A stretch of DNA of 64,000 nucleotides from Occallatibacter riparius (GTDB lineage: Bacteria > Acidobacteriota > Terriglobia > Terriglobales > Acidobacteriaceae), in contig NZ_CP093313.1 in assembly GCF_025264625.1 (NCBI RefSeq), forward strand, positions 4,340,001-4,404,000, read 5' to 3'. How positions within the stretch are numbered: the first letter of the stretch is position 1; each line of letters opens with the position of its first letter. Below the pieces are notes generated by a model. The model was not told the origin of the DNA and made no database searches. It was given only the letters and a program-made list of their open reading frames with translations. Positions 1 to 4,382 of this stretch are shown here, piece after piece. Position numbers and translations under genes: made by a program.

Positions 1-322
1 GCAGTTTCACGTCGGTGGCGATTTCGATGATGGTTCGCGGGTGGTGTCCACGCCCTTCTTCATTTGCGGTGGTGCGAAGGATGAACGCTGGTCTGCCGAA
101 TATCGAGCAGGGAACAATGTTCACGGTGACGGTCCCGCCATACTCCGCGGCTTCGAGACGCAGGCTGCCCGCGGGAACAAACCAGGGTTCGTCGAGTTGC
201 AGGTTCAGGGTGCCAGGGAACAGCAGCATTCCCGTCTTGCGCAGGTAGTGATCGCGGAGTCTCTCGATCCAGACCGAGAAATTCCCCATTCCTGATACGA
301 CTTTTCCGCGCAGCTTAGGCAT
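1..322 (-). CDS. CTP-dependent (DUF120-type) riboflavin kinase, C-terminus outside window
   Basis: The reverse strand reads open from the ATG at 322 to the window edge, about 107 codons. The protein begins MPKLRGKVVSGMG, has FPGTLNLQLD near residue 36, and ends at the edge in HHPRTIIEIATDVKL. This is the layout of archaeal RibK (DUF120): xGxVVSGxG at the N-terminus, a GTLNLxL loop, and an IIEIxAxxKLR segment before the C-terminal strand. RibK phosphorylates riboflavin to FMN with CTP rather than ATP. The nucleotide loop usually written GLGEG is here GMGNF, so the family is clear but the cofactor preference is inferred. The last 20-30 residues are missing. Bacteria normally use RibF for this step, which makes the gene unusual. 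Similarity was judged from memory of the family. Confidence 0.7.
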   Translation of the reverse strand, partial: MPKLRGKVVSGMGNFSVWIERLRDHYLRKTGMLLFPGTLNLQLDEPWFVPAGSLRLEAAEYGGTVTVNIVPCSIFGRPAFILRTTANEEGRGHHPRTIIEIATDVKL

Positions 323-1629: not shown

Positions 1630-1754
1630 CTTGTTTGATTCGCGCCGATTATACCCCGGAGGCACAGGCCCGAACCCTTGCGAAATTGCAAAGAGGCGAT
1701 TGCAGCCCGTACGTGCCGATCTTATGATGGTTGGCACTCCCCGCGGATATCCCC

Positions 1755-4382
1755 ATGCGACCCGAAGATCTGCGTCAGATCGAAGAGCTGTACCACTCGG
1801 CGCGCGAGCGCGGCACTGCTGTGCTCGATGACGTTGCGCCCAGCCTGCGGCGCGAAGTGGAGAAGCTGCTGGCCCAGGACTCTGAGGACGCGGAAGACGC
1901 CGGAAAGCTTCTCGATCAAAGTGCGGCGGAACTGTTGATCCAGATGCCCGTCCCCGAAGTGGAGCCCGGCTCCCTCCTGGGGCCCTACAAGATTGAAGCC
2001 CCGCTGGGAGAAGGCGGAATGGGGCAGGTCTTTCGCGCCCGCGATACGCGGCTCGGCCGCACGGTTGCGATAAAAATCCTCAAGGAGTGGAGCGGCCGTT
2101 TCGAGAAGGAGTCGCGAGCCATAGCGGCTCTCAATCACCCCAACATCTGCACGCTGCATGACGTTGGCGCCAATTACCTGGTGATGGAGCTGATCCAGGG
2201 CGAGACCCTGACCGAGCGTCTCAAGCGCGGCTCGCTGCCCCCAGAGCAGGTTGTGCAGATCGGCAAGCAGATTGCCGAAGCCGTTGCCGCAGCGCACAGC
2301 CAGGGCATCATTCATCGTGACCTGAAACCCGGCAACGTCATGCTGACCAAAGTCGGCGTAAAGGTGCTCGACTTTGGTCTCGCAAAAACAGCCGCCGATC
2401 CCGCGGTGAGCGTTGAGGGAGTGCTCCTGGGTACCCCGGCCTACATGGCTCCAGAGCTGTTCGAAGGCGCGGCCGCCGATGCGCGAACCGACATCTACGC
2501 GCTCGGTCTCATGCTGCGCGAGATGCTGACCGGCAAATACCCCGAGCGGATGGACAAAGTTCCGCCCGTGCTGGCCCGCCTGGTGAACCGGTGCATTGAG
2601 CGCGACCCCGAGGAGCGATGGCAATCAGTCGCCGATCTGAAGTGGGAGCTCGAATGGGCCGCACTGCCTTCCGCGCCAAGCCAAAAGAGTTCATGGCGAA
2701 ATCCACTCGCCGGCGTCGCTTTTGCCGCGATAGCGCTGGCCGCGTTAGCTTACTTCATGCTGCGCAGACCGTCGCCCCCGCCGCAGCCGGCGCGCCTCAG
2801 CATTGTGCTTCCCGATCGAGCGCGCGCGGTGTCCATGGCTCTCTCGCCGGATGGCCGCTCGCTGGCCCTCGTTCTGGTGAGAGACGGCCGCCAGCAGATC
2901 TGGGTCCGATCTCTGGATGCGCTGGAGATGACGCCGCTGGAGGGCACCGATGGAGCACTTCATCCATTCTGGTCGCCCGACGGGCGGTCGATCGCCTTCT
3001 TTGCCGATGCCAGGCTGAAGAAGATCGATCGCGCCGGCGGCCCCGTGCAGACGCTGTGCGTTGCGCTGGCCGCGCTGGGAGGCACGTGGGGTGCAAAGGG
3101 TGACATCCTCGTGGCCGGCCAGGACCTCATCAAACGAGTGTCACCCGTCAGCGGAGAGGTATCGCTTCTGCCCGAGTCTGCAGGCGTGAGGAGCGGCGCT
3201 TATCCCTCTTTCCTCCCGGATGGTGAGCACTACCTGGCCACGCGCGGTGATGGAGTGTGGCTGGGCGCAACGCACACAGCAGACGCGCGGAAACTCGTGC
3301 CGGACGTTACGAGCGCGCAGTTCATGGCTCCGCCGCCTGGAAGCAGGATAGGCGCTGTGCTCTTCGAGCGCGGAAACGCGCTCATGGCGCTGCCGTTCGA
3401 TGTAAAACGGCTGGAGTCGGCGGGCGATGCCGTATCCGTTGCGCAGGAGCTTGCCGGCGGACCCGACCGGTACCGCCTTGCTGCGGGGTCCACCGCCGGT
3501 GTGCTTGCGTATGTTTCCGGCCAGCCAACAGGCTGGCAATACGTGTGGCGCGATCGCGAAGGCAAGAATCTCGGCTCGTATCCAAACGCGGGTGCAGTTG
3601 CGATGATCTCGCCCGACGGAAAGAAGCTTCTCGGCGAGCACTTTGACGGCGGTGTGTGGGTTACAGAATTCGCTGCAGGAACCGGCACCAGGTTGACGTT
3701 TGGTGGTGGGGCCAATCCGGTGTGGTCGCCCGATGGAAAATACATCGCCTACGGCAAAGTCGACGACGGCATCTACCGTAAGCTCGCGAGCGGCGAAGGT
3801 GATGAAGAACTGCTGACCAAGGTGAAGAATCTGGCTGCACCCAAGAGCTGGTCGCCGGATGGGAAATACCTGGTCTATGCGCAGATTGATTTCGGCGTCG
3901 GCTCTGACCTGATGGCGATCGCGGTCAACGGAGATCGCAAGCCATTTCCCGTGGTGCAAACCGCGGCCGCCGAAGATCAGGGACAGTTCTCTCCTGACGG
4001 CCGTTGGCTCGCCTACACTTCCAACGAATCGGGGCAGGGCGAGGTGTATGTGATTCCGTTCCCCCAGTCGGGAGGGGCGAAGTGGCTGGTGTCTCGGGGA
4101 GGTGGAGTGCTGCCGCGATGGCGCCGCGACGGCAAGAAGCTTTTCTACATCTCGGCTGACTCGCGCATGATGGAGGTCGATGTGACCACGCGGCCGGTGT
4201 TTCGCTCGGGGACCCCGCGACCGCTGTTCCAGACCAACATTGTCGACACCGGAATACGCAGTGGCCCCATGAGCTGGGACGTCGCGCCAGACGGAAACCG
4301 TTTCCTGATCATCACCCCCAACGTGGTAGCGACGCCCGCCGTAACTGTCGCCTTGAACTGGAAGGTGGAAGGCGCGAAGTGA
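1755..4382 (+). CDS. Transmembrane Ser/Thr protein kinase with TolB/WD40-type propeller
   Basis: The ATG at 1755 gives MRPEDLRQIEELYHSA, the usual opening of this acidobacterial kinase class, so it is preferred to the in-frame TTG at 1731. The 875-residue protein has a short N-terminal helix, a complete kinase domain (GEGGMGQVF near 85, AIK lysine near 107, HRDLKPGN near 187, DFG near 206, TPAYMAPE near 227), one transmembrane helix near 316-336, and an exported C-terminal propeller with repeated SPDG and WSPDGK motifs (PD40 repeats). It probably phosphorylates cytoplasmic targets in response to a ligand or protein bound by the propeller. It is divergent from the ECF-like sigma factor with a 125-base shared promoter region, which suggests a sensor-sigma pair. 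Confidence 0.92.
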   Translation: MRPEDLRQIEELYHSARERGTAVLDDVAPSLRREVEKLLAQDSEDAEDAGKLLDQSAAELLIQMPVPEVEPGSLLGPYKIEAPLGEGGMGQVFRARDTRLGRTVAIKILKEWSGRFEKESRAIAALNHPNICTLHDVGANYLVMELIQGETLTERLKRGSLPPEQVVQIGKQIAEAVAAAHSQGIIHRDLKPGNVMLTKVGVKVLDFGLAKTAADPAVSVEGVLLGTPAYMAPELFEGAAADARTDIYALGLMLREMLTGKYPERMDKVPPVLARLVNRCIERDPEERWQSVADLKWELEWAALPSAPSQKSSWRNPLAGVAFAAIALAALAYFMLRRPSPPPQPARLSIVLPDRARAVSMALSPDGRSLALVLVRDGRQQIWVRSLDALEMTPLEGTDGALHPFWSPDGRSIAFFADARLKKIDRAGGPVQTLCVALAALGGTWGAKGDILVAGQDLIKRVSPVSGEVSLLPESAGVRSGAYPSFLPDGEHYLATRGDGVWLGATHTADARKLVPDVTSAQFMAPPPGSRIGAVLFERGNALMALPFDVKRLESAGDAVSVAQELAGGPDRYRLAAGSTAGVLAYVSGQPTGWQYVWRDREGKNLGSYPNAGAVAMISPDGKKLLGEHFDGGVWVTEFAAGTGTRLTFGGGANPVWSPDGKYIAYGKVDDGIYRKLASGEGDEELLTKVKNLAAPKSWSPDGKYLVYAQIDFGVGSDLMAIAVNGDRKPFPVVQTAAAEDQGQFSPDGRWLAYTSNESGQGEVYVIPFPQSGGAKWLVSRGGGVLPRWRRDGKKLFYISADSRMMEVDVTTRPVFRSGTPRPLFQTNIVDTGIRSGPMSWDVAPDGNRFLIITPNVVATPAVTVALNWKVEGAK

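Follow-up and report, generated by a model that had tools for sequence, protein, structure and literature searches.

A distinct bacterial branch of the DUF120/RibK family, with an altered glycine loop, occurs beside RibF in Occallatibacter riparius and other bacteria

To our knowledge, phosphorylation of riboflavin by a CTP-dependent kinase is generally regarded as characteristic of archaea. The closest described system is MJ0056, the CTP-dependent RibK of Methanocaldococcus jannaschii (PDB 2vbv and others), in which we take T43 and N45 to be Mg ligands, T99 and E107 to contact FMN, and the glycine loop and residues 112-115 to bind CDP. RbkR of Thermoplasma acidophilum (PDB 3cta, 5trd) has the same RibK domain together with an N-terminal DNA-binding (helix-turn-helix) domain. 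RibF, presumed to carry out the same chemistry, is encoded by a separate gene and belongs to other Pfam families. The original prediction placed a DUF120 gene in a bacterium and noted that bacteria nearly always use RibF. DUF120 genes are uncommon in bacteria; in a control set of 14 genomes PF01982 was found in four, all of them archaea. A literature search yielded, among the matches listed (titles or abstract beginnings), none on a bacterial DUF120 protein. The fold and family of the protein described here are known; it belongs to a distinct bacterial branch scattered over several phyla.

The window, a stretch of 64,000 nucleotides (C1:4340001-4404000), comes from the O. riparius genome (G000; 6,794,547 bases in one contig). 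Its first 322 positions hold, on the minus strand, the 5' part of the DUF120/RibK-like gene (107 of 130 codons), with the ATG at 322-320 and a GAGG, ending five bases ahead of it, that by eye is a plausible ribosome site. The remaining 71 bases, including the TGA stop, fall to the left of the window, and extending the contig leftward, as had been proposed, completes an intact gene of 130 codons (G000:C1:4339930-4340322) whose product contains IIEIATDVK, in keeping with the anticipated IIEIxA, and the motif IIEIATDVKLRD. Compared with four relatives (NG86), the gene has dN of 0.088-0.170 and dS of 0.85-2.14, the latter partly near saturation; the resulting ratios of about 0.07 to 0.2 are far below 1 and indicate purifying selection. 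The reading frame at the left edge of the window is thus a real gene, under selection.

The only Pfam domain of the 130-amino-acid protein is PF01982 (DUF120, CTP-dep_RFKase), matched at residues 8-123 with E 3.2e-13 and 50.1 bits against a cut-off of 25, over profile positions 1-121 of 121. Sequence searches found two solved relatives, MJ0056 (E 4.2e-7) and the T. acidophilum riboflavin kinase (E 2.8e-4), and homology with the former extends over the full length, with 28% identity over 122 residues. An AlphaFold (AF2) model built from a 30-sequence alignment, own sequence included, has a mean pLDDT of 90.5 and the cradle-loop barrel fold of RibK, and it superposes on MJ0056 with CDP and FMN (2vbv) with Z 18.4 and an rmsd of 1.9 Å over 122 residues. 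RibK and RbkR structures score Z 10.0-18.4 (15.4 for 5trd), and everything below them 6.1 or less, including 3op1 (entitled macrolide-efflux protein), flavin reductases and the remotely similar RibF barrels of Thermotoga maritima FAD synthetase (Z 5.8) and a Corynebacterium ammoniagenes module (Z 5.0). In this comparison no other barrel family matched better than RibK/RbkR, and the predicted family assignment stands. Unlike RbkR, the protein has no DNA-binding domain, all 130 residues being RibK domain.

Conservation was counted over 51 aligned rows: 31 bacterial, 13 viral (some of them near-identical), five from HAD-like fusion proteins and two archaeal. The residues P-G-T-L-N (36-40; window 203..217, minus strand) include T38 and N40, which align with T43 and N45 of MJ0056 and are kept in 31/31 bacterial, 13/13 viral, 5/5 HAD-fusion and 2/2 archaeal rows. 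The segment IIEIATDVK (residues 98-106; window 5..31, minus strand) holds E100, counterpart of Glu107 and presumably the flavin-contact Glu of the EI motif; like G11 it is found in all 51 rows (31/31 bacterial for E100). R108 occurs in 50 of the 51 (30/31 bacterial), and the Leu-Arg of MJ0056 is also kept. By contrast, the GEGR loop of MJ0056 is replaced: VVSGMGNFS (residues 8-16; window 275..301, minus strand) corresponds in the alignments to VVSGLGEGR, and at the positions of E17, G18 and R19 the bacterial branch has N, D or S, then F, Y or C, then S, W or A. The G-x-G-E-G-R loop of archaeal RibK thus reads G-x-G followed by N/D/S and F/Y/C. An altered presumed CTP loop (SGMGNFS) had been pointed out for this gene, and the alteration is in fact a trait of the whole bacterial branch. 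A two-residue deletion in the loop, suggested by a pairwise alignment, was dropped, the multiple alignment being gap-free there.

The bacterial branch also has residues of its own. About eight positions (Y26, K29, E60, Y61, G62, R83, T84, G92) are invariant in 31/31 bacterial rows and mostly differ in archaeal, HAD-fusion and viral forms, K29 and E60 each recurring in one archaeal row; an additional Nostoc copy (L100) has E where the others have G62. Among these, Y61-G-G and R83-T84, like C72, set the protein apart from MJ0056. W18 (30/31 bacterial, 13/13 viral) and C72 (31/31 and 13/13) are confined to the bacterial and viral forms.

The suggestion that the gene serves a lineage-specific FMN supply was not supported by the proposed search of the same genome for ribF. 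PF01687 (98.7 bits) and PF06574 (151.5 bits) both match one 330-codon RibF frame at C1:796746-797636, so that the protein, in contrast to canonical archaeal RibK, would not be the sole riboflavin kinase of its genome, and replacement of RibF is rejected. Among 28 tested genomes with a bacterial-branch DUF120 gene, PF06574 exceeds its cut-off in 26; the exceptions are a Nostoc MAG (G206) in which a match was absent and a 59% complete MAG (G160) with a match below the cut-off. It is likewise over the cut-off in 8/8 further Acidobacteriota with some DUF120 form, in one of them (G396) by a short contig-end match. With RibF in the same genome and in 26 of 28 tested carriers, it is improbable that the cell depends on the DUF120 gene for its FMN.

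We give about an even chance to the reading that the protein is an accessory, single-domain nucleotide kinase that requires Mg and acts on a flavin-type acceptor, an activity that we infer from its family and predicted fold; retention of the presumed Mg ligands and of the Glu speaks for a catalytic role. Riboflavin or a close flavin or ribityl compound would be bound in the cradle-loop barrel, Mg would be held by the TLN motif, and phosphate would be moved from a nucleotide gripped by the conserved Leu-Arg together with the glycine loop in its altered form, GxGNF. Housekeeping FMN and FAD would come from RibF, which would leave the enzyme dispensable, to be gained and lost. Several observations count against a flavin kinase: the absence of GEGR; the loss, in the bacterial branch, of a Pro found in the other forms where this branch has T84; and the non-Thr residue at the position of MJ0056 Thr99, where the facing residue depends on an unsure alignment. 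Also counted against it are a scan of 12 loci (146,945 bases) in which no FMN riboswitch reached the gathering score, and the absence of any flavin gene recurring beside the bacterial copies in the neighbourhoods examined.

The viral relatives widen the question beyond flavin supply. Small DUF120 proteins that group with the bacterial branch are encoded on 13 IMG/VR viral contigs (L087-L099), on all of which (about six distinct sequences) the gene directly follows a methyltransferase gene; in the eight contigs read, glycosyltransferase-like and RecA-like genes were recognized nearby by eye. In a 40-row tree six distinct proteins from viral contigs group at 98/87 with the bacterial branch, itself supported at 96/86, whereas the HAD fusions, MJ0056 and RbkR fall elsewhere; the rooting is tentative because long branches meet among the outgroups (a program warning) and only two archaeal sequences are included. 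A search of 72,556 plasmid records at E 1e-5 gave no match to the Nostoc protein, neither it nor one viral-contig protein matched any of 50,697 cultured-phage records (E 0.01), and PHROGs gave no family for three viral-contig and two bacterial DUF120 proteins.

The rebuilt loop, the branch invariants, the near-constant RibF and the viral setting suggest that the protein may not share the phosphate donor or the acceptor of archaeal RibK. The main alternative, which we hold less probable, is a RibK-fold kinase shifted to another acceptor, such as a sugar, polyol, nucleoside or specialised metabolite, viral relatives included. The eight invariants favour this, as do the shared W18 and C72 of the viral proteins, the RibF that is nearly always already there, and the place of the viral gene behind a methyltransferase with glycosyltransferase-like genes near, which is odd for FMN supply. 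Against it stand the conserved counterparts of Leu-Arg, T43, N45 and E107, and the Glu that both archaeal rows share at E57. In addition, no substrate-pathway gene recurs by the bacterial copies, and none of their examined neighbours is related to the methyltransferase of the viral contigs. A wider version, about as probable, makes the bacterial GxGNF branch and the viral branch together a new group of RibK-fold enzymes in which both the acceptor and the donor loop are new; its members would be exchanged between bacterial phyla and put to viral use beside a dedicated methyltransferase. With a scattered, strongly conserved bacterial branch beside RibF, the name "CTP-dependent riboflavin kinase", when assigned automatically, may be incomplete or mistaken, and the small protein offers itself for testing how a nucleotide-binding barrel changed its donor or substrate.

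Two Bacillales DUF120-like proteins (L105, L106) read GRLQ or GSIQ in place of GTLN and have thus lost the presumed Mg ligands. Their loss of the T and N of TLN implies that the fold may outlive catalysis and, with the altered loop, would suit a non-catalytic flavin- or nucleotide-binding protein (a sensor, carrier or enzyme partner); for the window protein we think this improbable, since T38, N40 and E100 are invariant, R108 nearly so, and selection is strong.

Transfer from archaea, also raised in the original prediction, is not supported in the simple sense: in a 34-row tree the 31 bacterial rows, the window gene among them, split from MJ0056 and two HAD-fusion rows with support 100/96, and the gene, which sits in a separate bacterial clade, does not look like a recent acquisition from archaea. 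An archaeal riboflavin kinase acquired by the lineage for FMN supply, which would fit PF01982 membership and the lack of a second PF01982 match in the genome, is very improbable in view of RibF, the grouping with bacterial sequences (with only two archaeal sequences in the trees) and scores far below the NCBIfam RibK equivalog cut-offs (46.8 against 168 bits for NF040694, 49.2 against 279 for NF010762).

The window gene, that of Occallatibacter and those of three other Acidobacteriota form a group of five rows (97/90) in the 34-row tree, of which 16 of 31 inner branches are open. In the best tree Acidobacteriota require four changes and Bacillota two, of which the strongly supported (starred) branches force one each and do not rule out a single origin in either phylum; two are forced for Cyanobacteria when Melainabacteria are included, and Pleurocapsa joins a Phycisphaerae MAG at 99/97. 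Spread of the gene between bacterial phyla is likely, and strongly supported branches demand it in the case of Pleurocapsa and the Phycisphaerae MAG only. Among nine genomes of the same family (36 pairs), mean identity is 66.8% for the DUF120/RibK-like protein and 55.2% for RibF, whereas between these and nine genomes of other phyla (81 pairs) it is 59.2% and 34.1%; such a flat gradient is also expected from a slowly evolving protein, and the tree by itself is no proof of transfer. SZAS-3 and Occallatibacter have RibF proteins 87% identical and DUF120/RibK-like proteins 62% identical. This case and the patchiness of the gene suggest exchange among bacteria with displacement and loss.

Even within related groups the gene is patchily distributed. 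PF01982 was found in nine of 200 sampled genomes of the window genome's family, itself included, all nine of bacterial-branch type, and in 10 of 396 genomes of Acidobacteriota, where three (G000, G128, G419) are of this type and the remainder are five HAD-like fusions, the contig-end fragment in G396, and G531, whose sequence was not read. The family of one Nostoc genome gave 10 of 192 (G205 and G768 being the two sequences read), and the order of Lederbergia three of 299, one of bacterial-branch type and two divergent without GTLN. A scan of named contigs, biased to close relatives because it was based on two short peptide patterns, returned 36 loci from Acidobacteriota, Nostoc, Pleurocapsa, Melainabacteria/Obscuribacterales, Bacillaceae, Paenibacillus, Mucilaginibacter and two Phycisphaerae. 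Four of the 36 (L047, L050, L054, L056) are frameshifted or truncated, with assembly errors possible, and in L050 an apparent deletion has fused the copy to the last part of its neighbour, which by eye is a methyltransferase gene; such broken copies are as expected for a dispensable gene.

Other Acidobacteriota (L057, L058, L060, L061, L062) carry a more canonical DUF120 behind a HAD-like domain, assigned by eye, in frames of 325-402 codons. These proteins share Pfam family, phylum and the presence of RibF with the window protein, but differ in their higher family scores (95.7-103.7 bits), in loops such as SGKGEAA and in the fused domain, and the 40-row tree places them with MJ0056 and RbkR, outside the bacterial and viral branch. 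A bifunctional FMN hydrolase/riboflavin kinase is known from plants, and by analogy the fusions could be a phosphatase/kinase pair for flavin.

Just left of the window a VOC/glyoxalase-fold gene (L012:9535-9933, minus strand) overlaps the DUF120 stop by four bases and has an in-frame TAA. At the same place it is intact in Occallatibacter savannae (L022) and a 19-residue remnant in L024; it was seen in these three of 40 loci and not found in the other 37, so no function is built on it. Candidate operon partners recognized by eye (methyltransferase, SDR, DinB-like, GNAT, gamma-glutamylcyclotransferase-like) did not cluster across phyla, nor did a neighbour of any kind recur across phyla in the bacterial loci examined; one cluster of 17 loci is apparently the antisense reading of the DUF120 gene itself. 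Further into the window, an ECF sigma factor gene (PF07638; 1063-1737, minus strand) is divergent from a gene (1731-4382, plus strand) for a Ser/Thr protein kinase that carries PD40 repeats in its C-terminal part.
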